Below are positions 7,001-57,400 of a DNA stretch of 64,000 bases, one piece after another (the first letter of the stretch is position 1; every line of letters begins with the position of its first letter). The position numbers were made by a program, and so were the translations under genes. The notes beneath the pieces are model-generated. The model ran no database searches. It had not been told where the DNA came from and saw only the letters and a program-made list of their open reading frames with translations. The stretch comes from Haliclystus octoradiatus (Eukaryota > Cnidaria > Staurozoa > Stauromedusae > Haliclystidae): the NCBI GenBank assembly GCA_916610825.1, contig OU744451.1, forward strand, positions 12,983,520-13,047,519, given 5' to 3'.

Positions 7001-10000
7001 TATACCCTATGTATCTTGACAGACAATGATAGATAGAACAGTACTACTAAGTAATCTCACAAATATATTTTCCATCTATCCTGATAGATGTATCATAATT
7101 TATCTGACACAGCTTCATTGTTTGATATCTCTATCAGGACATCAGTATATTCAAATACTACAAAGAGCTGATAAATTACAGACTGAAAGGAAATCCTAAT
7201 GCTGTACTAAAGTCAATTAATCCAAAGGAAGTAAGTTCTCACATAAACGCATATAGAGTGTGTATCTCAACCACCGTAGTAGAATCAATGTTCTGTAGAT
7301 CTTAAACCCATTAAAATTTTACAGTTCAACCCCTGTGAAGAAGCGTTCATGTGTTCATGAACGTGAAATTGCCCAAAAGTTCATGAACTGTTCATGAACT
7401 TTCAGGCAATTTCAAATTCATGAACCAGTTCATGAAGTGGTTCATGAACACAAAAAAAGATGTTCACAGGGGAATTGCATTCATTATTTATTGTAAGTAG
7501 TTCATTTTAGTCAAACGTAGTTTCTTATCTTCAATTGTTTTGATTCATTTACTATTCATATTTAACTTTAATAACATTTATAAAACCTTTTATGGAATTT
7601 TAATCATGTACCAACATGAAATAAATATTTCTCTTCTTTTTGTGGTACATTTCAGACATCCAATTTTACTCCAAAAAATCTAACCAATGCAATTTATATT
7701 GTCCCAATAATCTCCCTTGTGAAATATGTTGCATAAACCTCACTCATTGTTTTTTAAACCAGAGTTTATTATAAGTCTTCACACAATAAGGTTGGCACTT
7801 AGGAGAAAGAAAATATGCAGTAACTTCACTTATAAAACTTGTGTATTGTCAAAACAACAATGAGGACAATATGAAGCACCAATCACAATGCATTAATAAT
7901 TATCGCATGCCATCACATAGCACAATACCTAATGATATCACATACTCCACACATCAAAAACATTACCCCTATGAAAACAATTCATGAATGTTAAATATTT
8001 AATGAAATTTGGGACATTCATGAGCTGTTCATGAACTGTTTATAAGGTGCTCTTCAACAGTTCATGAAAGGTTGTAAAGTTCATGAATTATTCGTAAACT
8101 CAACTACTTTTTTGCAGGGGTAACTTTTAAGAAATAGATCTAACTGTGAAAGTAGTTCATGAAATGCTTATTAAAAGTTTGTGAAAATGTTAAATTGTTC
8201 ATTAAAGTTTTATGAACGGTCTATGAAAATAATGCCTTGTAACATTCATGAACTGTGGGGGAGTTCAAATTGAGGCACAGCCTAAAAGACTAAACTAATT
8301 TAATCAATTGTCTTTCAATCGAGCAATGCATTCTTATGTAATATATACAATATGAATCCAAAACAAGTTATTTTTTATTTTCTGTAATTCCGCATTCAAT
8401 GTTGAACCCCACCATTAAGAGACAAATATTTGTTTGTGTCAACAATTTGAGAACAACATTGACTTAATATTGAATCTCAACTTTTATTACATTTTTAAAA
8501 TTGTTATTTATGCCTTTTCTCAGTCACACCTTCTTGATATGGCATCTGGATCATTCCTCAAGTTCCGTTTGAATGGGGTGAGTACAACAAGAAATGAATT
8601 GAGCTCAAGTTCTGCTTTATGTACCACAGGACCTATCATCGATTTTTGGCAATCTATTTGTAGATTGTGGGGTCATCTTGTCATAAGTTGACATTTCTTA
8701 TAGTGTGCTTTTTGTCTATAAGTAGCAGAGGACAAGGTAGTACAAGTGGGCAATAAGAATTGTTAATGGCTGCTATACAATACTATCGCTCTAACATTAC
8801 GTAATAATTGAATTGCCATATATTCAAGCTTGAATTGAAAATTGGGCAAATGCACTAAGTCACTTAACTTAAAAGAAAACTAGAAGTAGAAGAGTTTATT
8901 TGGAACATTGAACTGGGTAATATTACTTTTCTGCATTTTCATATTTGAAGTTAACTTTGTTGGAAGAGGGTCCAGTGAATGGAATTTTTAATATTTATGT
9001 CTGTCTTTAGCTCACTTTCCCACCTGTCATATGTTATAAGATATTCACACATCGCAACGTTGCTGACATTGGGTCATTTGCACCAAGAGACTACACAGAT
9101 TTAACGTCAAAGCAAGAACCAGCCATTGCCATTCACAATCACATAACAAACCAACACAATACAGGTATGCACACCCTACGTATATCAAAGGATGGTATCA
9201 TCATAAATATGCTCTGTTAATTAGAATCTCTAGAAAATTGAGCAATTTGATTTGTCAAACAGTGGTCTGTTCTAAAGCGGAATTGACCACTCTGTGTTTT
9301 CTGACAACAATTATTATTATTGATTTGATACAGGGGCATTCTTCCCTATCTGGTGGGCATTGTCATTTGCAATTAATCATTATCAATCATCATATTTTTA
9401 GCATGTTCGCTTGTTGATTCCTTTGTGCTATTCATTGTAATTGAGTCATGTGCACTAACAATGCAATTGATATGTTTTTATGTGCATAAAGCCCTGGCCC
9501 AATAACTTTTTTATTTCGCCAACATTCATCGGATTTTTTTGAGTTCATTTTCGTCAACAGCGGATGGTATTTTGAGGCTTGGAAGCTAGTCAATCAAGCC
9601 CACCAATCCTGAGACAGGCTACGTCATTGTTGACCAATCAGAGGAGGGTTCATATTTTCAACAAAACTCAACAATGTTGAGGAAATAAAAAGTCATTTGG
9701 CCACTTCGCCAACATCGGTAGAGAACAATAGAACTCAACAAAATCCAATGAATGTCGAGGAAATTTTTGAATGTATTCAAAATCGAAATTCAACATCAGC
9801 CAACAAAATCCGAAAAGGTGAGAGTGGTGAAATGACTTTTTATTTTCTCAACATTCATCGGATTTTGTTGAATTCAACAATGTTGGCAAAATAAAATGTC
9901 ATTTGGCCGGGGCTTAACACTTCTAACTGTAATTTCGTTATTCACAGAGATTGATAGTCCGGTAATAGCATACAATCACCAAGAAAACAATGGATGGAGA

Positions 10001-15436: not shown

Positions 15437-26377
<10,941 letters not shown>

Positions 26378-28519: not shown

Positions 28520-31393
28520 TTACAAATCTAAAACAAAGTTGTTTAACCATTGAGGTTGTCTACGCTCTCGAATCGGCCGACCAACTGGAATATTTTCATC
28601 AACATCATCATCCGACGTGGACGATTCCTCGGATAAACTTGAGTCACCATCAGGATTAGAAATGGAAGCGGTTTCAACAGATTGATCTTCAACAGTAGAA
28701 TGACGTTTTCGTATATGAGCAACATGCCGAATTGAACTAACATTGTTAACTTTTACACTAACCTTTTGTGCAGATAATTGTTCAATAACAATACCAGGCA
28801 ACCAACGTTTATAACATCTAAGTGTTGAATCAGGTTTAACCCAAACATAATCACCAGCTAAATAATCAGGAATAAATTGTTTTACTGGTATGCATGGCTT
28901 CACAAATTTCAATCGTGGAGCATAATTATACAAATAATGAGAAGGCGGCTTAGACATACGATGTGTTGTTGTATTATTATACCAATAAACAGCTTCTGAA
29001 ATACTACAATCTGATCTAGACGCAATAGTTTTAATTGTCCGATGGTTACGCTCTACTATACCATTGCCTTGCGGCCTATATGCAGCACGTGGTGATAATT
29101 TAATATTCCAATCTTCGCATAATGTACAAATATCATTAGACTTAAAAGTGCTATAGTTATCCCAAATTATTTCAGCTGGTGGTCCTCTTTCAGTAAATAT
29201 AGATAATAATTGACCACGAATTTGAGCCGTACCTTCATTTGCAATCCGACGCCAAATAGTATACCTTGAAGGTCCAGCGTCGACAATTGTAAAATATTTT
29301 TCGTCTTTAAATTTTGTCACATCAATAGCTAAACGATACCAATCATCATCAACAGATAAATTTCCTTTTTCCCAAGTAACAGGAATTGGATCAATTGATT
29401 TACATTTGTCACAGGAATCAATAATAGCAGTAATATCAATATCAGTTACATTTAAATTTGCAGATTGGGCTAAATAACGTAATTGTTTACTTCCCCCGTG
29501 ACAAATCTCATGCAAATATTTTAAAGTAATAAGTGGTGCTAAAGTACCAACAGCAGATATATTAACATTTGCTAACCACGAAGAAGGAACTCTTGTCAAT
29601 TTGTCTGAAATATTCTGATCAGAACGAACAAGGTCAATACTAATTTTCAAATCGTATTCCTTTACAATATTAGCAAATAAATCTATTCTTCTGCGAATTA
29701 ATAGTTCACTAGAAGCAGCTGTTTTTAGACGAGATTTGTTTAACAAAGCGTTAGATAGCCAACCATGAACAACAGATGAATCAGTTTTAATAGATATATC
29801 ACATAAAGACCAAGCTATAGCGAAATTCAATCCTTTCAAAACAGCATCTAACTCTGCTAAATTAATATGAGCAGATATATCTTTTCGTAGCCAGGAGGCA
29901 TCCTCCACAATATGATTATTAATTTTAACACAAATACCTAAAGCCAATGAACTGGCATCACACCATATTTCACCTTTGGTTTGCTTGCCCACATTCCATT
30001 GACCGCGGGATGGATTCTCGTTAAGTACATGCTGTAACATTTCTTGACAATGCTTCCGTACATTTTGAGGTACAATGTCATCCCAATCTATTCCAGTACT
30101 TTCCCTTTTTAGATAACTAGCCATTACTCTTAATCTCCCACAAACTGGATAAATTCCAATTACACGACCACAAAGTGAATACAGTTCACGCTTTGTTAAA
30201 GTAGTAACGTCTATATCGCGTAAATGGGACTCATTTGACCTTTCCCAACGCAATTGATTACCAACAGAATGAACATTCAACCCCAAAACGCGAACAGGGG
30301 ATTCATTATCAATACGCTCTGTAGGTTTTGCAGTAAGGCCATATTTTAATAAATGTTGACGTACATAATCAGCAGACACGATTTCTTCGTCAATGTATAT
30401 ATCATCTATGTAGCCATCGCAACCTCTTTTAACATTGTCATCCATGTTTAACACCTTTCGTAATACAGTTGACATTATCATAGGTGCTACATTGAGCCCA
30501 AATCCTAGGCGTGTCAAACACCAGCGTTTACCTCGATGAATGACCGTCTGATATGGCCATAACTTTTCATCAACTCTTAATTGGAGGTACGCATCTTTTA
30601 AATCTACAACAGCGCATTTGTTACTTTTTTGTCTCCATTGACGTAGCTTGTCAAGACAAATATCGCTTGCACCAGTATATAAATCTACAGATTGGTTAAG
30701 TTGTCGAAAATCAAAAATAGGACGAACTTTATTTTTACTTTCCTGCGTAACAGCGAATAAAGGTATTAATGCTTTCGGTGGTCCAAATTTGGTTTCATCA
30801 TAATAAATTAGATATTCTTTCTCTATCCAACTATCCAGAGTATTATCAAAGGATTCTTTTGTTGCTTTATCCATACCATATTGACTAACAGTATTTTTCA
30901 TATAATCAGGAGGATGGCCGTCCGTCCATTTCCAGGCGACCGTCCAGCAACTACCATTAAATTTAGCACTAAAATTTGTATCATCTAATATAACATGATC
31001 ATCATGCGTTAAAGGTTTACTACTATTGATAATATTAGGTGCAGCAACAACAGCCGATAAATATGGTTGCCGTTGACAGCCAAATTCAAAAGAGCCGTCT
31101 GATTTAACATAAAGACCATCAAATGCTTTTATTGCATCAATACCCAAAATAAAATCAATACCATCAATTAATTTCCTAACCACATGACATAATACAGCTT
31201 TTGATATACATCCTATTGTAATATTGAATGATAAAATACCCATAGATGAAACCTTTGTATTATCCATCATTGTAATAAGACATTGATCAGGAACTACTTG
31301 TAAATTTTCAGTAAAATCTTTACACGCAATAGAGAAAGAACAACCAGTGTCTACTAAAGCACAATAAGATTTTCCATTAACGATAATTTCCAT
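28520..31393 (-). CDS. pol: LTR element pol: protease, reverse transcriptase, RNase H, integrase
   Basis: 957 aa from the first ATG, intact. Aspartic protease ALVDTGCSFS near residue 15. Reverse transcriptase about 200-370 with CAVVDLKDAYLQL, LGFGLNVAPMIM and the catalytic YIDDIYID. RNase H about 470-600 (GEIWCDASSLALGICV, ELDAVLKGL, IKTDSSVVHGWL). Integrase about 630-850 with CHGG and CDKC (zinc part), AIDVTKF, IWDNYSTF and RPQGNGIVERNHRT (D, D, E). The order PR-RT-RH-IN is that of Ty3/gypsy. The frame is -1 to gag and stays open through the gag stop, so pol could be made by -1 frameshifting or by starting at the ATG 15 bases downstream. Confidence 0.9.
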   Translation of the reverse strand: MEIIVNGKSYCALVDTGCSFSIACKDFTENLQVVPDQCLITMMDNTKVSSMGILSFNITIGCISKAVLCHVVRKLIDGIDFILGIDAIKAFDGLYVKSDGSFEFGCQRQPYLSAVVAAPNIINSSKPLTHDDHVILDDTNFSAKFNGSCWTVAWKWTDGHPPDYMKNTVSQYGMDKATKESFDNTLDSWIEKEYLIYYDETKFGPPKALIPLFAVTQESKNKVRPIFDFRQLNQSVDLYTGASDICLDKLRQWRQKSNKCAVVDLKDAYLQLRVDEKLWPYQTVIHRGKRWCLTRLGFGLNVAPMIMSTVLRKVLNMDDNVKRGCDGYIDDIYIDEEIVSADYVRQHLLKYGLTAKPTERIDNESPVRVLGLNVHSVGNQLRWERSNESHLRDIDVTTLTKRELYSLCGRVIGIYPVCGRLRVMASYLKRESTGIDWDDIVPQNVRKHCQEMLQHVLNENPSRGQWNVGKQTKGEIWCDASSLALGICVKINNHIVEDASWLRKDISAHINLAELDAVLKGLNFAIAWSLCDISIKTDSSVVHGWLSNALLNKSRLKTAASSELLIRRRIDLFANIVKEYDLKISIDLVRSDQNISDKLTRVPSSWLANVNISAVGTLAPLITLKYLHEICHGGSKQLRYLAQSANLNVTDIDITAIIDSCDKCKSIDPIPVTWEKGNLSVDDDWYRLAIDVTKFKDEKYFTIVDAGPSRYTIWRRIANEGTAQIRGQLLSIFTERGPPAEIIWDNYSTFKSNDICTLCEDWNIKLSPRAAYRPQGNGIVERNHRTIKTIASRSDCSISEAVYWYNNTTTHRMSKPPSHYLYNYAPRLKFVKPCIPVKQFIPDYLAGDYVWVKPDSTLRCYKRWLPGIVIEQLSAQKVSVKVNNVSSIRHVAHIRKRHSTVEDQSVETASISNPDGDSSLSEESSTSDDDVDENIPVGRPIRERRQPQWLNNFVLDL

Positions 31394-31407
31394 AGTTAGT
31401 AAGCCTT

Positions 31408-32160
31408 TTAATTTTTGGGGATCGAAGTTGGCTCCGCAGACGCTACGATCCCCAGGCCGTTTCCCGAACGTTTTCTACAGCCAAAGGATATATGCCCTTC
31501 TTGTCCACAGCGATAACATGTAACTGGTTCTCCTGGTTTTCTCTCAGTTTGACAGTCTTTAGTCAGGTGTCCATTAGATTTGCATTTATAACAATATTTC
31601 TTAGTAGTGCTAGTATTCGTGTAATTAACGGCTTTCACTCCAGCTAAGACAATAGGCTCATTCATTTTAAATTCCTTTGCATTATCCGCCTCTACCAAAA
31701 CACGGGCTTTTGATACTAAATCAGCATCAGATGCATCTCCAAGTATTCGTAGTTGCATACCGATTTTCTCTGGTAGCCCAATTACAAACGCAACTCCTGC
31801 ACCTCCCATACCGGACAATTCACATAATCTCTGAATGTCGCTAAAGTATGCATCTACATTCTCTCCGTTCTTATAAGTTCTCGATCGCAATTGTTCGTAT
31901 GCTGCGAACCGAGACAATGAAAATGCTGATAGTAACTTCTTCTTGACTATCGTGATATCTCTTTTATCTTCCACCGATAATTTTTGATAAACCAAAAAAG
32001 GTGGACCTCTCAATAACAGTGGTACCAATGAAAGAACATCCGCTTGACCATAATTTTGTAATTCTGCGATTATCTCAAAACGGGACCACCATTCTGCTGC
32101 GTCCCCTTCTCCATTGTAAGTTCCAACAACATCAGTGATCTTCAATTTTGTATTTGCCAT
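31408..32160 (-). CDS. gag: LTR element gag (nucleocapsid with two CCHC knuckles)
   Basis: 250 aa, intact. The N-terminal part has the retrotransposon gag helix pattern (YNGEGDAAEWWSRFEIIAEL, LRSRTYKNGENVDAYFSDIQ). The C-terminus holds two zinc knuckles, CYKCKSNGHLTKDC and CYRCGQEGHISFGC, expected to bind the element RNA during particle assembly. The ATG lies 14 bases after the 5' LTR, so the leader is very short. The stop at 31408-31410 is followed by pol in the -1 frame. Confidence 0.9.
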   Translation of the reverse strand: MANTKLKITDVVGTYNGEGDAAEWWSRFEIIAELQNYGQADVLSLVPLLLRGPPFLVYQKLSVEDKRDITIVKKKLLSAFSLSRFAAYEQLRSRTYKNGENVDAYFSDIQRLCELSGMGGAGVAFVIGLPEKIGMQLRILGDASDADLVSKARVLVEADNAKEFKMNEPIVLAGVKAVNYTNTSTTKKYCYKCKSNGHLTKDCQTERKPGEPVTCYRCGQEGHISFGCRKRSGNGLGIVASAEPTSIPKN

Positions 32161-32174
32161 TTGGCCCGTTAGCT

Positions 32175-32555
32175 TGTAAGTTTATTGAAGAATTAAAGTT
32201 GAAAAGACAAATGAGAAATTCAAACACCACTCAGAAAACACAACAAGCTGAGTTAAGGTGTACAATCCTGTCTCTTATAAAACTTTCAGGAATCTGATTA
32301 AATAAATGTTAAATCTACTTTTATATGTATAATTGAGAACACTTGGTTATTATTATTTCATGAATACAATACGTAATGAAATTATGCTTAATGAAATTAT
32401 GCTTAATGAAATTATGGTTAATAAGATTATACTAATTAATGAGGTTAACTAATTGATAATAAAAATAATTGATTGAACTATACAAGAAGACAATTATAAC
32501 TTACAATGGTTCGATCATACAATAAAATATCAAACATGAACATATTTTACATACA
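32175..32555 (-). repeat. 5' LTR
   Basis: 381 bp direct repeat of 28127-28507. In element orientation it begins TGTATGTAAAATATG and ends AACTTACA, directly before the gag leader. Confidence 0.9.
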
Positions 32556-45400: not shown

Positions 45401-48400
45401 TCACATTTGTAAACAAACCCATGCTGGGGAAATTCTTATTTATTCAACATAGTCTCACATGTCTACTGATAATGATAGCCGGCAATTTTACTGCAATGAA
45501 AAGACATTAATATAGAAAACAATATACATACAAACTTCCTCTTCATCATCGACAACAAATTATTATTATTTATTATTATATATGAGCGATCGCATATATA
45601 GATTTAACGAGGATTCAAATGCGATGAAACTCGATTGAACAGTTTGATGGGATCAGTGTATTTAACTAAAAAATGTAAACAATAATAAATAGTTTTTTCT
45701 TTCGGGAAAGTGGGATTGAATTAATTATTGAATAATCAAATCGATGGATTTATAAATGTTGCCATGATGTGAGTGTTGTTTTACAATGTTTAGTGATGAA
45801 GCTAAATAAAATGCAGACAAACCCGGGAGTTGTAAAAATGGCCCTATTTATATAATCAATTCAAATGTGAATATTGCTTCACTTTCGAGAGTCGGCGAGT
45901 CGTTTACACAGGACTATGTAATAATCTACTTTTAAATAAAACCAGTAATCATGCTATTAAAGATATGACTGTTTCATGCGTATGAAGCTGAATTAGGGTC
46001 AAACTCGATTCACACGGCGATGACATATTTCACATGGTGATGATGTGTTTTCACATGGCGATGATTTATCCTGAATCAGTGTAGTGTTCAAGCAAAATCA
46101 CCCCCTTGGTACTGTGGCAACGAAATGGCATTATTTTGCACGTTGTTTAGTGTTTTAAAAGTAGATAAAATTGGAAAGGTATTTAGCTAGCATGATTATC
46201 GACACCACCTTGCCTATATGACTTGGAATATGTAGAAAGTACTGTTCATGGCTGAAATAATTGATGAAATAAGATGTAAAGAAGTAATAAATAGTTTTCC
46301 CATTCTATATACTTATTCAAAAGTCACTTGAATCAAATGTTGAATAAACACGTTATGAGTAGTGAACAATTATTAGTATTTCTCCGGGCTATGCCGGTGT
46401 TGTATAGGTGAAACACAATTTAACCTTAGCCCCCGACAAATTGTTACCTTGCAACTTGAACTTTATGACATTCAGTATGATACTCGGGTTTGTGATGTTT
46501 CGTGGGTTTTTTGGTTTCTTGAATTTTTTGGCTATGGCTACTACTTCCACGTGCTTTGGGATAAACTAGATAGTACCAAATTTTGTAAATTTCTCAATTA
46601 AATTGCGGCTTCGATCGGCTTTTCTACATAGATTTGTTCATGCATTTATTTTGAGCCAGTTAAACCAGATGATTCACAACTCAATATAAGCATGCATTTG
46701 CATGCAACTCGAAGTCTAGTATATTAAATAAGCAACTTTATTTGTAATATTGAATTATCCCCCAAGTTCTCTCAAATCATATTCTCTCAAAACTAGCGCT
46801 TTTGCATTACATTGTATTTTCATAAATAATAATAAATTTCCTTAATCATATAATATATGATAATAAAGATTGGTTTATTACTTTTAGCAGATACAAAATA
46901 GGTAGCTATAAAATACTTTATTGTTTAGTAGTGGTGTGGTAATAATGGTAATTAATATAGTTATCATCAACATAGATACTGGTAAACTTTTTCAAATGGG
47001 CACTTTATGGTTTTCTCGGAACATTTAATTTTAGGCATCTTTTTATTTTAATATTCTAATTTGCAAGATAATGAAATAAAGGGGGGCCACAATGAAGGCC
47101 AATGTGGCGATGAAATGCGTCACATGGCCTAAATACAAAAATGCAGTACTGTCAAACTAAATTACTATATCCAAGTGGTCTTTATATACAGTGGAGGTGA
47201 CGCGAATTTTTTTTTCCGCGACAGTCAGCGCATCATCGATAGTCAGGCGCATCATTTCTTGTGCGTTTTACATCAGTAAACGACTCTCTCCCAGGCTATC
47301 AAATAAATATCTTAGTGAATTTGAGCGCGATTACACATAATTTTGAAGTTTGTAAGTTTTATAGCACATTGTTGAAGTTTAAGCTAATAATTATGGGTGA
47401 TCTTAGTAACGACTTGAAATGTGTCGGGTGCAAAGGAGCAATCACTGCTGCTCATGTATGTGAAAAATGTAAGGAGCCTGTGCATACATTATGCGGGAGT
47501 AGAAAAGACGGAGAAGAAGGATACGGGGTGGCACTAATATGCAATAACTGTAATGACAAAGAAGAAGAGCCGAAAATTGCTGAAAATATATCAACAACAG
47601 CCGGGCAATCGAAAAAGATCACGGGATACCATGCTTTTTTGAAGAAGGCTTCTGTAAGTAAAAACTTTTATACTTACCTGCGTAATAGTTTTTGTGTAAA
47701 AATGTTATTGTTGGGTTAACGTTATTGTTTGACATGGTTTTAGAACTTTTAGTGCATCTCTATCATGGTTGTAGACTGTATTCAGGCCTATTTGAATGTA
47801 TTGTCCTATTAAAACTCTGTATTTTTCTCATAAGCATAATGATATATGTTTACTTACTGTACCTTACAGGGAATTATCACTGACAAAATTCCTGATGCAG
47901 ATCTCTCAACAATCAGTCACAATGCTTCATTGATGTGGCAAATGTCCGACCCTGAAGTCCGAAAGGTGAGTTTATTTCAATATATTCTAGTCATAAGTAA
48001 GTCACTCTACTAGCTTAGGGTAGCCTAAGCTACAAATTTTTTGATTCTATAAGAGAGAACACCCTTTATAGGAGCACAAACCTGAAGAAATGTCCAAGGT
48101 TAAGAACAAATATATTTATTGTTTTCAATTGTAGGCCTACTGTATCCAGGTACCAGGTTCAGTAGTTGTGTATTGCTGTTTCGAATTAGTATGACCACTA
48201 GTAATTATAATCACACAATCAAAACAAAAACACGTTATGTAAACCTTTCAAGGCATAGTACACATATTTTAATAGCTGTATAGCATACAATTAAAATAGA
48301 TATAGCATGAGCCTGTTATCAAGAAAATAAGAAACGATTAAATTTTCCAATGCAATCATTTCTAAGAACACATAGTATCATGTAAATTTCCACACCTTAT

Positions 48401-51400
48401 AGGCCTAACCAAAAGCGGTTTATATAACAATAGTAATACTTCTATCCATCTAGATATTGGGCCTTTGTAATGTTCAAAATCAACTAGGTAAAGATAAATG
48501 CAGTGTCAGTCAAGGCTATTCAATCAGAAGATATCTGTCATCTCTATGAATCATGAAAAGGTCAAATCAGCGCTATACTGCAGTTACTTGAATCAGTGAC
48601 CACCCCGCTTAATTCACAGCATCAACCTGATTTAAATAAATTTTCCACGTCAATCTTTATATTGTAGAGGCAATATTTATTTCATAGATGTATAATTTCA
48701 ATTCACAATTTAGCCACATTTTGTGTACTTGACATTATGCAAGATGTTATTGTTATTGTTGAAAGATGACATCCAGCATTCATCATGACGATAATAATCT
48801 TAATTTTTGATTTGGCAATTGTTAGGATTGGCAACGTCAGGGTCAGCTGCTTCGAGAAGACATTGATTGTGGAATTGTCAATTACAGTTGTGGAAAATGT
48901 AAAAAGACTTTCAAAAGAGAGAAAGATATGAAATATCATGTGAAAAACTGTGTTTCATGTGCGTGTGATGTATGTGGCAAACAATTTGGCAATCTGACAT
49001 CTTTAAAAAGGCATATACCTGTTCATACCGAACAGTTCAGATGCAATGTTTGCTCAAAGCAATGCTCAACGAAATTTATGCTGAACAGACACTCAGCAAG
49101 TCACAGTGACGAGAAAATATTTAAATGCAGTATTTGCACATCTGCATTTAAATCGTCTTCAAATCTGCAAAGACATAAACGGCAGCAGCATTGTTGAATG
49201 CTGATTTATCAGATGATTAGTTAGTACTTGCTCATTATAATTTTCATCTTAAGTAGCCTAGTAATAATTTCAGATACTATACAGTCAAACCTGTTATCAC
49301 GGCCACCTCTATACATCGACCGCCTGTCTATATTGAGCACTCTAGCAATGTTTAAAATAGTCTTTTCTATTGAAACCGTAGTTAAATTCTCTGGGTTGTG
49401 AATAGTTAAGTTACATTCATGTAGTAACAAAGTAGAAAAATGGCAAAGAAAAGAAACGTTTTTTTGCTTCAAATGTTTCATAATTCAACTTGATTATCAA
49501 GTAAATATCATCTATGTACAATTAAATACCATTATTATATCATATCTTTATCTATACTTAAGAATGTATACGCACACCTGAACATAAATGCATGGAAGTT
49601 TCTTCCTTTGTCTGCCTGTAAAAATAAAACTTTGGAGAAAATGTTATTATTGTCAAGTCAATAGGAGGCATTACCACAGCAGCACAAGTTGAATAATGTT
49701 GCAATAAAGTTAGGTTGAGCCTAAGATAACTAGCTGTTCATCCTGACACCTGTATCATCAACAGTTTACCTGTTACCAGACTATAGTATGAAGTACACTG
49801 TTAACTACATCTTCATGCACTGTTGTTATTCAGAAGGGCAGTTTTGAGACTGGATTACCCTCGGTGAAAACTGTTCATGAATGTAAAATGCCCCAAATTT
49901 CATAAACAGTTCATGTACTCGGTGGACGTTTTCGAAGGGGTTGAACCTTAAAACAAACATGTTCAGGTGTCTGCAACCAAATAATTTCCTTTGAAAGTGT
50001 CTGCAAATAGTCTTCTTGAGTTACTTTCTTGCGAAAGGATACTATTTTAGTCAGAATGACATAAACAAAATGAACAATATTTTCTAATTCAGAAAAACGG
50101 ATAATAATGCTTTCATATTCTGCAATTTTGAAAGTTACGGTCATTCTATTGTTCTCAAAATGCGCCTGGGACTGGCAGTCCTCATTTTATTGCTCGGCAT
50201 TAGTTCTTAGTCAACATCGTCCCTGTGAAAACAAGTTGATTGACTTTCAGGCAATTTCATATCCACAGCCGGTTGAAGTGTCATGAACTCTTCGTGACTG
50301 TTTATTGACCCACAAGAAAATGTCCATGAACTCATGGATTTTTTTCACAGGGGTAGATCCCATCAGTGCCTACCTCTACTGTTTCATCGAATAGTTGTTA
50401 ATTAAATTCAATAGCATGTGAAAGCAGGGGATACTGTTGAATGAATTATGGAGAGATGTTTGTTACAGTTTTGTAGCAGTTCGGAGACTGAATTGCCTTT
50501 CCTTTCTATAAAAAAATTCATGAACGTAATTGGCCCAAATTTCATAAACAGGTTATGAAAAGTTATATCAAAACCATTAGATGTTCATGAACTGTTTATA
50601 AGATGTCATAAACTCAATGAATTTGTTTGCAGTGGTAGAACCTTTAACCATCTGTTGGGTACCTTACTAGAACAGTAAATGGTTGGCTGATATTGCCGTA
50701 TTGAAATACGATTATTTCATTGTTCTGTGATGTAAAATGTACAGTATAAATTAATGGATTTCATGGACATTAATGACAACTTTATAACAAGTTCAATTCG
50801 TGAACTTTTAAGAAATACTTGATAAAAGTTCATCATAAAAGTTAAACTGCTAATTTTTATGATATTTTTCACCAGCCTATCATTAGCAGTTCATGAACAT
50901 TGGCTATGTAATGTTCATGAACTCCTGTAAAGAGGGAGCTAGCCCATAGTTCAATAAATGTTTTCTAAGAATTGCTTGGGTTCCTATTAAAAAGATGTTT
51001 TATATTTTTAATGTGTTAGATTAATGCAAATCACAGAATCAACAAAAGACTGACTGTTAGAGTTCTAATAACATATACATTTTATTACAGGTTTGACTAC
51101 TTTTCTTTTGTAAATCTTGTGTGCGTTCTCATACTATTCCCAGATTTTTTTGGTGCTTTTTGATTTTTTTCTACATTTTCAATTAATTTATGGGGTCTTT
51201 TTGGTTTTCCCAGAACTGGCTGGAATGGATTATTTTGAATGCTTCCTTTGTTCTGTTTTTGCCTGGAGCCAGAAGGAGACGCCCCAGATTGTTTCCTCTT
51301 TCTTTTTGCTACTGCTGCTGGCTGCACACCTATTTTCCCACGGGAATGTTTTTTAAGAGACGTGCCAACTCTATTGACACTTGGGTTGAGCGCATCTGCG

Positions 51401-54400
51401 CAAAAGGAATGCAGGCCACTCGCAACTCGAGATTTAGGAAGTTTATTTATTTTGCTTACAAATTTCATCACCCCTTTCCGGAAATTTTGGTCATCAACTT
51501 CCATATAATTTTTCAGGATAGCTGACGCTTGCTCAAACGCAGAAATACAATTTTCTTTGGAAATTGAGTCCATTGATTCACTGCTATTGGAAGCCATTTC
51601 TTGTTGCTGGGATGGAGACTCAAAGTAGCTATTATCACTTGGCAAACCATCGTCTTCATTGTACGAGGCTGGCATTCCTTGCGTACATAACATGTCTAAA
51701 TTGCCTAGGTTGAGTTGACCGTGAAGATCTTCGAATCTATCCAAAGGAGCATAATATCCCAATGAAATGTAGGCAAACATTTGCCTTTGCTCTTTTGAAA
51801 ACTTAGGCAGAAAGTTCACAGAGTCAGTAACAACTTGGTTTGACCATAAAACAAATTGGTGTTTGCATGGAGAACCGTCCCTTCCTATTGGGCACTCACA
51901 AAAACCGCAATTCGTGTCAACCATATATTGTTTCCCTTCATCTGTAGCGCTTGGCACAGAAAAAACCCCTTCACCATGGCAAATGACATTTTCGAACGCA
52001 ATAGAGGGATTTCCTTTTTTTTGTTTACCAGCAAAAGATTTAAATCGTCTGCTGTATATTCCATCAAATCGGCCTGATGCAACTGATAGGAGCTTATTGC
52101 TGTAGTGCTCATCGAGTGATGTAGTAAGCTTGTCTAATAAGCCAATGACATTAATTTCTTTCTGCCTGTGTAGCATTTCATCCTTCATTACCAGAAACTG
52201 AGCCTCACAGTAGTTATTTGTGTGGTTTCCCCTCATCGGAAGATCTTTTCTGTGGTAGAGGGCCCAAAAAATTTTATAGCTATAAAGCCCAGCGAAATAA
52301 GCAAGAAAATTGGGATACTTTTTTATATTTTTATCGTTTATCATTGCTTCATAGCTTAATTCAAATTGCTTTTCATCTTTCTGGTAAAGCATCGTCTTGA
52401 ATTGTTTCAAAATAGAGGGTTTTTCTTCATGCTTCACTCCATTTTTTGTCTCTTGAAGCCAACGCCACACCTGCTGCAGCATATGAAAAATGCACAAAAG
52501 TGTTTCTGAGCAGGGCCATATTGAAAGCAATGCATCTCGTAACTCACAGCAGTTGTCTGTCATAAAAACTTTAGGATAGACAGAGCCATGAAATGAATAT
52601 GATGGCAAAGAATCTGCAAACATCTTAAATGCAGTTATCAGAGTTGATGTAGTTTCGTCGCTCGTGATAACTATGCCGAGGGGTAAAGCACCACATACGC
52701 TATGGGTCACGAAAATAAATACACGCAAATTGTACTCTTCCATGTTGGAAGATGAGTCTACAAATACAAGGTCTCTAGCATTCATCACCTGCAAAATAGA
52801 GACAATTAGTGATTAGATAAATGATGATGTGAGGTTGTCCACACTTGTGTGGGTGTAGTGCTCAATGATAAATATTAAGAGCTTTTGATTAATAAAATGA
52901 GTTAAAAAGAGGCCCTCGCTACTTCGAATTTCATGCATCAAGGTGATCATCAGGCAAGTATACACCTTATAATTTACTTACTACTTATTATTTAACTATG
53001 ATTTGATTATTACTTTATTATAATAAAGTCTATAGCTGCCTGATGATCGCCGTATGGCGTGAAACTCGACATTAGTGATTAAAAAATATGTTTTAATTTG
53101 CAGAGCTTCAATAATGGTAGCTTGATATGGTAGAAATAATTAAATGTCAATACATAATAATCTGATTGGTTTGAAGGTAGAGCTACTTTGTTGTAGATGT
53201 TGTGCTAGCAATTTTGTGTAGTGATCTGCTGCCTTTGTAATCAATGTCTCCTTGCCTAAAATTTGTACAACGTTTAGTAGAGCGTAGCAGGTATATTATT
53301 GTTCAGTCATTATTTTGGCTAGATGTTCACCAGTTATATTACTATATATATGACATTATGTCTATCCTTGTGAAAACAGTTCATGAACATTAAATGACCC
53401 AATTTCATGAACAGTTCATGAGGTTCATGGTAGTTTTTGAAGTTCATGAACTCAGTAAAATCTTTCAAACCATAACCAGCTAAACCCTAGATCATGGAAT
53501 AGCATGGAAAGATGAATGTTCAGCATGGTTATGATCTCATTCTAGTTCTATGACCGTCTGGAGTTTGTTGTTGATTTTTATTATGTTTTCACATATCTCT
53601 CAATACCCTTGTGTAAACCAATTCATTAACTGTGTATGAATAGCCCATGAGCATTAAATAATGACTTATTGTTTGTAAACCAGAAGTATTTGTTCATAAA
53701 TTCAAGAAACGTTGACTAAACGGACACATTCTATAATATAACGTTCATGAATTTCATCAGTCACGTTTTGCAGTCTCTCGTTCGGAGCGTCTGTTCAGGG
53801 AAATTGTTCATTGAAAATTAGCAGACATGTTACCAGGAAGAGCTTTTAATTATTGACCAAATGTCACAACTAAGGGGATTATAAAGTACAGTCAATTGTT
53901 GTTTGATGTTCAGGGGATTTCCAGCTCAAATTTCAATGTAGGCTTATAATTAGGCACCATTGTGAAATTTTTGAAACAATGACTAATATTACAACTTACC
54001 TTATTGTGGACTCTTTGCATTAGAGGAGAGATAACGGTTAAAATGAATGGCTGTTGCAGCTCTTCATCAAATCTTTGATGGTTAATTATATAACCACATT
54101 CTTCTTTTTTCAAATTTTCAATTTTCTGCTCCAAAATAGCAAACATATCAGCCAAACAACCTGTACCATATTTTTCAGATTTGAAGTGATTATAAATAGC
54201 ATTAAAATCGGCTCGTCTCGGTACAACAGAACGGTCGGCAAGCCTTTCTTGGATCTCTTGCATCGATGAGCATTCACTTCTAGCTTGAGATAAAAAGTAT
54301 TTATAGGCTGCACCAGGCAACATATGCCTTTCTTCGTAAAGAGATCTAATGTCACATACAACAGATGATTGTATATCCTTGAAGCTCATAGCATGAAAAG

Positions 54401-57400
54401 AAGTAACAGCGTGATTATGATCCTATGATCCCATTCTAATTCTATAACAGACTGGAGTTTGTGGTTGACGGTTTCAGTATCTTTTAGCACTTTGACAGTT
54501 AATGAAAATGGGCAATTGGTGTTTTTCAAACGCTTGCATGGATTTTCTACCAGGATCTTGCTTGTAGAGCGTGTACTTTCATTCCTTGTGTTATGCTGGC
54601 AACGGTAATACTCAACAAGCTTGTAAATACCTGACATGAAAGACACAGATTTCAAATACATAGGGAATTAATATATCCTCATAATCATCACTTATAACAT
54701 CTTGCAGGCCTAAATAGAATAGAAATGGTCTGAAAGCCCATTGTTGTAGCCTATTGTTAGCCTCTTTTAGAATCACATGATCAATTGAGGTTCATCCTTA
54801 TGGCGCACGCAGCAACTATCATCAATACTTTACTTGACTCCAATGGTTGATTTTTATAATTTGTCTGTCTGTTGCGTTATGTTATAACGTATAGTATTGA
54901 ATAAAGCGTTGGGTGTTGTTTAGAGTACTGATTTGTTATGCCTGCTTCTTATATTGTGCATTTCTCTCCAATGTGGGGATTGTCGAGGGAAAAGATAAAA
55001 GGCCATTTCCATCTATTATGGAAGTAAAAGAAAACCCCCTGACTACATTGCATGGCAATAAAATTTATATGCCAACCAAATAAAATACATATGTGTTAAA
55101 AAAATTTAAGAGGAATTGAAGCTTGGGGATTTATCAACATGAGAAAGACATATACAGACCAGAACGTTTGAGTTAGGCTACACGGAAATAAGTAATATCA
55201 CAGCAGTAGACATTACTTGTTTGCTATTGAGTTTTTATGCAAAGCTTCAGGCTACATTTCTTCTTAGTTTTTATATTTATTAATGGCATTTGCATGAAAA
55301 TGCTCAAACTCGAAAGTACAATTTAAATAATGATAGTAATAAATAATTTTTGATCTCATTGTCAATATCTAACATCTACATCTGTAGATGATGATTCTAT
55401 GATTTTCTTACAAATATAAATGACAATTATGTTTGTGATTAAACTGTCACACATTTTGGATACATCAAGCATGTCTGTATTTTGCCCATTATTACAGTAT
55501 CAAATTAATTTAGGAAGCTGATTAGTCATTAATTTGTTACATCCTGGATTCTAGCTCCATTAAGGATCTCTCAACATTTGTTGACATTCTGCTGGAATAT
55601 GAAATTATTAAATTATGTTGTCATTGTACTTTCAATTGTTCTTACTGCGTAGCCAGTTAGATAATATAATACATCCAAGGTCTAAACGTTTTCAGAATAT
55701 CATCCCTTTTCTCTCAAAGTAGGCTGTAACTATGAGTCTTCTGGGTCGTTTATTTGCGACTACTTTTATCAACATGAATTAACTTTACAGTGGATAGGAG
55801 ATTTTGCATGCTAGGCTTTAAGGCTAATTATTGCGTATTTACACAAATGTATATTTCCAGAGCTTATATACTACATAGCAAGCTAATCTTTCTTATTTTT
55901 AGTACAAAACATCAAACATCTAGCAAAAACACAGCTAATGCATGCATGGTCTTCTGCAAACCCTGTCCCCACAGTATGAGTCAATAATTAGCCTACCTGT
56001 GCGAGGAATGAGAATGAGGAGGAAGTTTATACTAATCAAAACAGTAGTAAAATGTCAATGTAATAATTATAATTATTAAATTAAAAACATCCTATACTTA
56101 TCACAAAGTTTTTATGTCTATAATAAACGAACTATCTATCTATCAATAATTACAGTAGGCTTACCTGTATTTTCTCGTCTTCGAGTAATGCGTAGTGTTT
56201 CACCATTTTTTATACCATAATCATCCACAAATAGTTTAACATCTTCCTGAGTTTTCAAGTTAGCGTGGATCACTGCTATAAATTTACTTGTTTTCCCAGA
56301 TACATTAACAACCTCAAAATTACCTTCAAACGGCAATATTTCGTTTACACAACAGCGTAGTTCCAATGTATTGCAATCACCAGAAAATCTTTTTTCAGAA
56401 AAAGTGATAGCTTCCTGGAGTAAAGCATCCATACTTAATACTATTAAAATTTCGAATAAACGTCAATACAAACTAACTTGAAGTTACTCAATAATCATGT
56501 TCAAAATATATTAGCTTAAACTTCAAACCATGTGCTATAAAACTTATATAAACTTCAAAATTATGTGTAATCGCACTCAAATTCACGAAGATATTTATTT
56601 GGTAGCCTGGGAGATAGTAGTTTACTGATGTAAAACGCACAAGAAATGATGCGCCTGACTATCGATGATGCGCTGACTGTCGCGGAAAAAAAAATTCGCG
56701 GAGGTGACATATGTTATGACTTGTATATAGAGTATAGCTATCATTGGATGATTTTCTCCGGTGACTATGGCACGCTTCCCAATTAAATTAAAGTACGGGT
56801 AGAAACTTTCAAAACTATTTGATAATAGCTATACTGTAACTATCTATATTGCAAATAACGAGTGTTTACTAGCGCTAGTTTGACAAAACACATTCATCCG
56901 GCAGAGAGTTCTCCGAGGAATGACACGATTGCGGAATTGATGTTAGTTTTGACAAAACACATTCATCCGGCAGAGAGTTCCACCGAGGAATGACACGATT
57001 GCGGAATTGATGTTAGTTTTGACAAAACACATTCATCCGGCAGAGAGTTCTCCGAGGAATGACACGATTGCGGAATTGATGTTAGTTTTGACAAAACACA
57101 TTCATCCGGCAGAGAGTTCCACCGAGGAATGACACGATTGCGGAATTGATGTTAGTTTTGACAAAACACATTCATCCGGCAGAGAGTTCTCCGAGGAATG
57201 ACACGATTGCGGAATTGATGTTAGTTTTGACAAAACACATTCATCCGGCAGAGAGTTCCACCGAGGAATGACACGATTGCGAAATTGATGTTTACCTTTA
57301 CCTTAACTGCATTAATTAACCTTGGGAATTGTTTTGGATTTTGATTTGAGGGAGACTTTCGACGCAACGCCTGTATCCCAGTAATTACTTTTAAAATCAT

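Follow-up and report, generated by a model that had tools for sequence, protein, structure and literature searches.

Maize MuDR has long terminal inverted repeats (TIRs), a 9-bp target-site duplication (TSD) and two genes, mudrA and mudrB, that converge from its TIRs; the reason for a second gene in some Mutator elements is unsettled. An element of similar layout in an animal genome raises the questions of whether its second gene belongs to the element and what the encoded protein might do. The mudrB protein has been called one of unknown function, and the second MuDR protein is described as apparently required for integration (PMC6446971). The element considered here lies in a stretch of 64,000 nucleotides from the staurozoan Haliclystus octoradiatus (the window). 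Its second gene has identifiable DNA-binding domains and is kept beside the transposase across families at about 36–42% identity.

Anatomy of the element

This Mutator-like element (MULE) spans window positions 47202–56699. A sequence-only reading had described a perfect 9-bp duplication, TIRs of about 190 bp and two convergent intron-bearing genes, and all three descriptions hold: GGAGGTGAC stands on both sides, the TIRs are 188 and 191 nt long, and the two genes between them have three exons each, with borders read from GT–AG and frame. The features are as follows (coordinates, strand, description).

47193..47201, unstranded, left TSD, GGAGGTGAC, identical to 56700–56708
47202..47389, + strand, left TIR, 188 nt, begins GCGAATTTTTTTTTCCGCGAC
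47393..47653, + strand, accessory exon 1, Znf_SCAND3-type finger and predicted start of HMG box
47870..47965, + strand, accessory exon 2, predicted middle of HMG box (HMG profile against PDB)
48826..49197, + strand, accessory exon 3, predicted end of HMG box, four C2H2 fingers, stop
51097..52788, − strand, transposase exon 3, catalytic domain (D12, D79, E196) and SWIM finger CxCx8CxH
54000..54630, − strand, transposase exon 2, with an 8-bp tandem duplication (about 54416–54431) and frameshift
56165..56432, − strand, transposase exon 1, start codon at 56432
56509..56699, − strand, right TIR, 191 nt, 94.8% identical to left TIR
56700..56708, unstranded, right TSD, GGAGGTGAC, perfect 9-bp duplication

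The TIR alignment pairs element positions 1–188 with 9308–9498 (94.8% identity over 191 aligned columns), and a repeat search on the window gave a TIR match of 154 nt at 96%. The left TIR holds GCGCATCAT twice, at 47228 and 47247 (19 bp apart). Both genes had been said to start at the inner TIR edges; more exactly, the start codon of the accessory gene (gene 1, + strand) lies 4 bp inside the edge of the left TIR and that of the transposase gene (gene 2, − strand) 77 bp inside that of the right TIR.

Long TIRs (here 188/191 nt, 94.8%) and a target duplication of 8–11 bp (here 9 bp, perfect in all nine two-ended copies) characterize the Mutator superfamily, as does a SWIM finger (CxCxnCxH) behind the DDE domain, present here with four invariant ligands. 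Judged by its sequence, the element is a recently active cut-and-paste DNA transposon of this superfamily.

The transposase gene

The earlier assignment of gene 2 to the DDE/SWIM transposases is borne out by a PF10551 MULE domain (E 2.4e-6; 28.3 bits against a cut-off of 27.6), by a DDE triad at residues 12, 79 and 196 (D-66-D-116-E, counted from one codon before exon 3) and by the SWIM ligands C298, C300, C309 and H311. These four ligands, D79 (the second D) and E196 are invariant across an alignment of 30 sequences; the Pfam SWIM match is below threshold (E 0.45). A weak ZSWIM3_N match (E 0.024) was also obtained. Phantom proteins have a FLYWCH domain N-terminal to the MULE domain (PMC3169594), and Phantom elements without it are allowed by Table 1 of PMC6446971; in the transposase pieces, scanned apart, no FLYWCH match appeared at E up to 1.

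In the window copy, exon 2 measures 631 nt against 623 nt in all seven other copies that have all three exons. The 8-bp tandem duplication is private to this copy, whose transposase is frameshifted as a result.

Most of the transposase relatives that carry a name come from cnidarians and Branchiostoma, with crustacean ones as well; they include proteins of Nematostella (for example LOC116618843), Hydra, Hydractinia and Dendronephthya (for example LOC114526596). In a tree of relatives, the window transposase groups with the octocoral (Dendronephthya) protein and two others (support 0.98). No relatives were found in viral contigs, and no solved structure matched the transposase of a second family (family 2, below) at E up to 1.

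The accessory gene

The second gene had been read as encoding a zinc-finger protein. The 242-aa product, spliced in phase 0 throughout, does carry four C2H2 fingers, preceded by a Znf_SCAND3-type finger (PF23663, residues 18–58, E 7.9e-11) and, additionally, by a predicted HMG box. A profile built from four hand-spliced families found HMGB1 as its best match in the PDB (E 2.4e-9), and one built from three families also found HMGB1 (E 5.4e-9). Single-sequence Pfam HMG_box scores (16.6, 24.1 and 17.2) all fall below the cut-off of 25.4, and the HMG assignment therefore depends on the profile and on splicing by hand. When its N-terminal region was compared by itself with solved structures, the window protein gave chance matches and no HMG protein.

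In the three families whose homologous gene (the partner) splices cleanly, an HMG box is followed by two to four C2H2 fingers by Pfam, the SCAND3-type finger being an addition of the window family, and two phase-0 introns, read by hand, stand at matching places. No clean splicing could be obtained for the partner of the fourth family (L036). Among other species' proteins, in a search limited by exact words and by gene models, none with this architecture turned up: 25 candidates included none at E 1e-3, and a further 14 matches (nine of them inspected as sequences, five scanned for domains) all carry C2H2 fingers, with no HMG box among their listed precomputed domains. On this domain evidence, the accessory gene encodes a small DNA-binding protein with an HMG box and C2H2 fingers.

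Copies of the window family

A TIR search of the genome returned 26 matches, all inside the 12 places examined. We found no fewer than 12 copies of the window family (family 1), whether full or partial; 12 have all three accessory exons. All nine two-ended copies carry both genes between TIRs flanked by a perfect 9-bp TSD; counting copies G and H once, because they belong to a single duplicated segment, gives eight independent insertions. The sequence-only reading had asked whether both genes always lie between such TIR pairs; in this family they do (9/9), and no full copy lacks the zinc-finger gene (0/9). With 26 TIR matches and 9/9 perfect duplications, the element is not a product of chance. 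A composite of unrelated repeats and a sequence artefact were likewise rejected. A TIR-like locus (copy M, C2:7531488) with only 77–81% identity and no gene match was left out of the counts, and in copy L the two genes are on the same strand.

Copies D and E are 99.905% identical over 9,494 bp, and both frames are open in each. The accessory frame is open in nine of 12 copies and the transposase frame in two of the eight that can be spliced. Among these eight copies with all transposase exons, the accessory frame is open in every one and the transposase broken in six, a pattern that a repressor limiting transposition might leave. We consider such a role improbable: the accessory gene, about 3.5-fold shorter than the transposase gene, is less often broken by chance, and family 2, with copies 99.9% identical, retains its partner gene. 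Within family 1, where changes are few, dN/dS revealed no purifying selection on either gene.

The TSDs (eight family 1 insertions and one of family 2) are GC-rich: 68%, compared with 33% for the rest of the window (0/20,000 resamplings). A palindromic target consensus, GTCGCCGAC by eye, was not significant (14/36 pairs, p 0.08).

Linkage of the two genes in other families

Family 2 (8,781 bp in its C4 and C8 copies; 119-bp TIR) encodes a transposase in an 886-aa stop-to-stop open reading frame (ORF) with 36% identity, with a convergent partner gene. Two of its copies are 99.9% identical, and at 12 of 13 loci the matched part is free of stops. Two copies were checked for TSDs: one has a perfect duplication (ATCGCCGCC) and the other is mismatched over 9 bp. 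Family 3 has open frames of 929–932 aa in four of five loci and a partner in all five, and a fourth family consists of three copies with identical scores, plus relatives.

Among the matches listed, there are 34 near-complete transposase relatives (loci that retain 80% or more of transposase exon 3), which outside family 1 mostly share 37–42% identity. A partner lies within 10 kb of at least 32 of them and a 33rd was added at C10:4784450; one, C7:16258992, had no partner detected. All 32 tabulated near-complete pairs converge, as in MuDR-type elements, and so does the pair at C10:4784450. The proposal of a dedicated second gene is well supported by these counts (33/34 with a partner and 1/34 without, among the matches listed). 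PF10551 loci have a partner in 36 of 42 cases inside the clade (some seven to nine lineages if match identity, not a tree, is used to tell them apart) and in 0 of 43 outside it, among the matches listed, with a Fisher p of 4e-18 that treats copies as independent, which they are not. The partner table records none beside 15 loci with <50% coverage; one of these has a weak match on the same strand (C11:8526705).

Conversely, among the matches listed, at least 38 of 43 partner places adjoin a transposase relative (36 of 41 without two rows added for adjoining a transposase), which speaks against a conserved host gene outside MULEs. The five orphans are truncated copy K, three stop-containing pieces and C6:6706854, a family-3-like piece with an open frame and without a transposase match within 10 kb, which may be a stray host gene or a solo copy. 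The two genes travel together across several distantly related families of the same genome.

MULEs often take up host fragments (PMC6446971), and the second gene might be such a passenger, captured as in Pack-MULEs and without function for the element. We regard this as very improbable and reject it: a homologous partner occupies the same place and orientation, with matching introns, in families whose transposases share about 36–42% identity, and no host source appears among the matches listed.

A possible role for the second protein

Anatomy, 9-bp TSDs, recent multiplication, gene linkage across divergent families and domain identity are established directly. From these, we infer that the element probably represents an old MULE lineage of two components, in which the second protein would act as a dedicated DNA-binding, and likely DNA-bending, cofactor of transposition. 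The TIRs would drive expression of both genes; the second protein would bind TIR repeats through its fingers; its HMG box would bend the transposon ends; and bending would help the transposase pair them. Repeats are paired near the ends of both families (16 bp twice in family 2, 9 bp twice in family 1), and those of family 1 hint at finger-binding sites. HMGB1 is a cofactor of Sleeping Beauty and RAG (PMC7827188), and the second protein would be a self-supplied counterpart of that host factor.

It could instead regulate TIR promoters, driving expression or countering silencing as vanC of Arabidopsis Hiun does, for which an anti-silencing function is reported (PMC6446971). Both genes begin near TIR edges, so a TIR-binding protein could occupy both promoters. 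The combination of an HMG box and C2H2 fingers is in keeping with an architectural DNA-binding protein, and we consider the regulatory role less likely than the cofactor role, though likelier than repression. The cofactor role is directly testable because the domains are identifiable, the pair is conserved, and copies D and E are open in both frames. An element encoding an HMG box would also lend itself to asking whether transposition is limited by DNA bending.

Comparison with known systems

A two-gene animal MULE had been presented as non-standard. This claim was too strong, because a C2H2 ORF next to the transposase was already reported in 2019 for Spectre, a MULE of the aphid Myzus persicae (PMC6446971); the same source lists a RING ORF in a truncated Ghost element and two ORFs in some Phantom elements. 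In the literature searched, we found no MULE report of an HMG-box second protein or of deep conservation of such a pair.

The window element might accordingly be an ordinary member of a described animal group. Like Spectre, it is an animal MULE with C2H2 and transposase ORFs between TIRs; the Ghost sub-group of cnidarians (MuDR-1_NV) has a TIR of similar length (177 bp), and cnidarians, with Branchiostoma, dominate the named relatives of the window transposase. However, Spectre has a 74-bp TIR and an 8-bp TSD (188/191 bp and 9 bp here), occurs in arthropods and, in the part of the source available, is given neither an HMG box nor deep pair conservation, and the Ghost sub-group is listed without a zinc finger; Table 1 gives one ORF for each (PMC6446971). 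Membership thus seems unlikely, although it deserves serious weight, the separation from Spectre and Ghost being by their descriptions rather than by sequence. Muta1 of Aedes (Phantom group), reported to transpose in yeast, is likewise an animal MULE with a 145-bp TIR, subterminal repeats and an 8–9-bp TSD, but is 3.2 kb long, its 504-aa transposase being mentioned alone in the available text (PMC5225508).

The element shares with MuDR its long TIRs, its 9-bp TSD and a pair of genes that start at the TIRs and converge; its second gene resembles mudrB in layout only, and the relatives found for the window transposase come from invertebrates and amphioxus. MURB is not known to contain an HMG box. 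Yeast Mutyl also has a second ORF, mutB, with C2H2 fingers and a DNA-binding role (same-strand in the text, antisense in the table), but its TIRs are 22 bp, it belongs to the Hop group, and the available description states no HMG box (PMC6446971).

Invertebrate RAG-like transposons likewise place convergent catalytic and accessory genes (RAG1L/RAG2L) between TIRs, with a RAG1-like transposase and a 5-bp TSD as differences (PMC7204232); HMGB1 is a separate protein there (PMC7827188), whereas the window element encodes its own predicted HMG box. We tentatively entertain, at somewhat short of even chances, a stronger form of the cofactor reading: an old invertebrate MULE lineage that would be obligately two-component, with its own HMGB-like DNA-bending cofactor, and whose cnidarian and amphioxus relatives should share the second gene. 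Its layout would parallel RAG1L/RAG2L, and its function would parallel that of host HMGB1.

Structure of the element

The genome searched comprises 261.9 Mb in 33 contigs (written C1, C2 and so on), with the window at C7:12983520-13047519. The element is a real, recently active two-gene Mutator-like element (MULE):

window 47202-56699: element, delimited by the 9-bp duplication GGAGGTGAC on both sides and by terminal inverted repeats (TIRs)

The sequence-only reading had described a 9-bp target site duplication (TSD), TIRs of about 190 bp and two convergent, intron-bearing genes, and this anatomy proved right. The TIRs are 94.8% identical across 191 aligned columns, and each gene has three exons, with borders predicted from GT-AG sites and frame. 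The plus-strand gene (hereafter the partner) encodes 242 aa with phase 0 joins, and the minus-strand gene encodes the transposase. Exon 2 of the latter measures 631 nt in the window copy versus 623 nt in all seven other copies with three exons. The difference is a tandem duplication of 8 bp found in the window copy alone, whose transposase frame is therefore broken.

Just right of the element, at window 56880-57000, a tandem repeat carries tttgacaaaacacattcatccggcagagagtt twice; a frame across part of it has no Pfam match. Elsewhere in the window, 28520-32181 (minus strand) contains an LTR-type retrotransposon or a remnant of one: an ORF with a CCHC zinc knuckle precedes a frame of 984 aa that matches integrase (rve) above cut-off and, more weakly, protease-like and reverse transcriptase domains. 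An 804-aa open frame at 22322-24736 (minus strand), without a Pfam match at E 0.01, is possibly a host exon, and a 1.2-kb ATT/AAT trinucleotide repeat tract with several open frames lies at 17049-18278.

Copies of the family

A TIR search of the genome returned at least 26 places. All TIR matches outside the window, amounting to 11 further places (20 stretches), were fetched and each was compared with the window copy; place M, having TIR-like ends only, was excluded from copy counts. All three partner exons occur in each of the 12 copies, A (the window element) to L. Both ends are present in nine (A, B, C, D, E, G, H, I and J), every one of which has a perfect 9-bp TSD and both genes, so that full copies lacking the zinc-finger gene, which would have told against the earlier reading, are absent among these nine. 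Copies G and H are 99.83% identical over 9,991 bp, flanks included, and thus represent one duplicated segment, leaving eight independent two-ended insertions. The left flank is common to E and F over the 60 bp compared. A 17-kb insertion splits transposase exon 1 in copy C. Three copies are incomplete. Copy F is without its right part, K retains only exon 2 of the transposase gene, and L, preserved in its left part (about 91-97%), has a different transposase (47% identity) farther on, on the same strand as its partner gene.

The partner frame is open in nine of 12 copies and the transposase frame in two (D and E) of the eight that can be spliced. These open frames, together with 99.905% identity between D and E over 9,494 bp, indicate that the family moved recently. 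At C7:8136912-8149200, copy D is succeeded by an additional right end, covering element positions 8031-9498 and sharing the TSD of D, which reflects a local duplication or an aberrant event. Place M, a 2.8-kb stretch at C2:7531488-7534326, is a possible non-autonomous relative: its ends are inverted, TIR-like and 77-81% similar to the window TIR, and it contains no gene match.

Linkage of the two genes

Transposase exon 3 gave 80 genome matches (132 candidates, 77 scored), which were merged into 56 loci when on the same strand and less than 3 kb apart. At 80% or more coverage of the exon there are 34 loci, and at 32 of these a partner lies within 10 kb, always convergent; at 50% or more, 38 of 41 have a partner, convergent at 37, the exception being copy L. 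The 15 loci below 50% show no partner within 10 kb in the main cross-table. A second search, with another family's partner as query, recovered the partner of C10:4784450, split by an insertion, and a weak match (C11:8526705, E 1e-5) on the same strand beside one of the fragments below 50%. With both queries pooled, the two genes travel together at 33 of the 34 near-complete loci, C7:16258992 being the only one without a partner within 10 kb.

In the reverse direction, among the matches listed, a transposase relative adjoins 38 of 43 partner places, or 36 of 41 without C6:24733938 and C1:16742720, which were included because they adjoin a transposase; generic multi-finger C2H2 genes were excluded from this table. 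Were the partner a host gene, it should stand outside MULEs, and five places do lack the neighbor, one with an open frame. Partner matches without an adjoining transposase are as follows, the last two from the second search:

C7:26907217: truncated copy K
C8:12475950: fragment with stops, beside a Harbinger-like gene
C2:23551033: with stops
C10:7616351: with stops
C6:6706854: frame open
C2:12194523: with stops
C1:31540109: 27-residue fragment

The ORF at C8:12475950 is, by motif reading, presumably a Harbinger-type nuclease, and on that reading the locus consists of nested elements. Among 85 control loci with PF10551, this kind of partner is found, among the matches listed, at 36 of 42 loci of this clade versus 0 of 43 other MULE-domain loci (Fisher p 4e-18, a value that ignores shared descent of copies). 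We conclude with high confidence that the partner is a dedicated gene of the element.

Other families with the same gene pair

The partner protein has 192 genome matches; those listed include the 12 family copies and lower-scoring matches at repeated loci, where MULE transposases are present in several cases. Family 2 pairs a convergent partner with a stop-to-stop transposase ORF of 886 aa that shares 36% identity with the window transposase. It is 8,781 bp long, with a 119-bp TIR unlike the window TIR, and occurs in many copies, two of which are 99.895% identical over 7,616 bp. Its TSD is perfect in one (on C8) of two copies checked; the 9-bp flanks of the other (C4:28584392-28593172) are unmatched, and this is perhaps a recombined copy. 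Family 3 has open frames of 929-932 aa at four of five loci and a partner at all five. A partner likewise accompanies a fourth family, whose loci C6:3120718, C7:11558611 and C8:4688170 score identically and which also includes C6:24735246 and C10:4782625; the two-gene plan recurs at several single old loci. Counted by hit identity rather than from a tree, the lineages with this pairing number roughly seven to nine.

Transposase and partner proteins

Transposase exon 3 matches PF10551 (E 2.4e-6); its catalytic residues are spaced D-66-D-116-E, and it also encodes a SWIM-type motif, CxCx8CxH. In a 30-sequence alignment the second D, the E and the four SWIM ligands are invariant; the first D was left unscored because many sequences start beyond it. 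Among 8,000 candidates scored, 77 proteins are homologous, the named ones from Dendronephthya, Nematostella, Hydra, Hydractinia, Clytia, Branchiostoma and three crustaceans. In a FastTree phylogeny (32 sequences, 552 columns), the window element falls with Dendronephthya and two unnamed proteins (support 0.98), the transposases of two other stretches, labelled L037 and L057, join four unnamed proteins in another clade (support 1.0), and family 2 sits apart on a long branch of low support.

The window partner matches Znf_SCAND3 (E 7.9e-11), has four C2H2 stretches, and matches HMG_box below the Pfam cut-off (E 0.011). Sub-threshold HMG_box matches also occur in the partners spliced by hand from family 2 (E 5e-5; four C2H2 stretches) and L037 (E 0.007; two C2H2 stretches). 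A profile of the HMG region from four families, compared with PDB, finds HMGB1 best (2.4e-9), then SSRP1 and other HMG proteins; without the fourth family (L036, less cleanly spliced), HMGB1 is again best (5.4e-9). By hand reading of splice sites, the window family, family 2 and L037 each have two introns within the HMG-box coding region, at corresponding positions, which points to one ancestral gene and argues against repeated capture.

For the SCAND3 finger, the genome contains 24 matches: 12 fall within the twelve copies, and none of the other 12 lies within 10 kb of a clade transposase locus (positions compared by eye). Those outside the clade with repeated scores or long open frames (C2:16117185, C2:29963107, C8:9265083, C10:3526263 and others) probably belong to other mobile elements.

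Proposed mechanism and target sites

Each TIR would drive one gene, the transposase would cut and join, and the partner would bind the element ends. The left TIR of the window family carries GCGCATCAT twice near its tip, 19 bp apart, and the family 2 TIR a 16-bp repeat twice, 20 bp apart, also near the tip; a few C2H2 fingers contact DNA of about this size, and the paired repeats thus argue indirectly for end binding. The HMG box would suit the partner to bending those ends. In the accessible text of the sources, HMGB1 is a host cofactor of Sleeping Beauty and also assists RAG (PMC7827188), and several transposases are promoted by bending proteins (PMC6900584). We tentatively suggest, at slightly less than even likelihood, that the partner is chiefly a bending or synapsis cofactor; alternatively, its role may be regulatory.

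TSDs have a GC content of 68% versus 33% in the window outside the element, a value reached in 0 of 20,000 resamplings (9 sites); a palindromic trend in the target sites is not significant.

Comparison with known systems

MULEs with further ORFs include, in the accessible text of PMC6446971, maize mudrA/mudrB, yeast Mutyl (mutB) and Arabidopsis Hiun and, among animals, Spectre (a C2H2 ORF, as in the partner described here), truncated Ghost (a RING ORF) and some Phantom elements. Given Spectre, the earlier claim of novelty for a second gene in an animal MULE is too strong. A 2026 arthropod survey, as far as its accessible text goes, finds that most elements carry one transposase ORF and that six species have two, counted as transposase (PMC13359780). 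In the literature on second genes and HMG boxes in DNA transposons, covered through titles and abstract openings with few subscription journals and without Repbase, we found no HMG-box gene in a MULE. The two-gene kind of MULE is known, and within the literature searched the HMG box and a pairing conserved across deep families appear new; this lineage-wide pairing and the HMG box are of more interest than a second gene as such.
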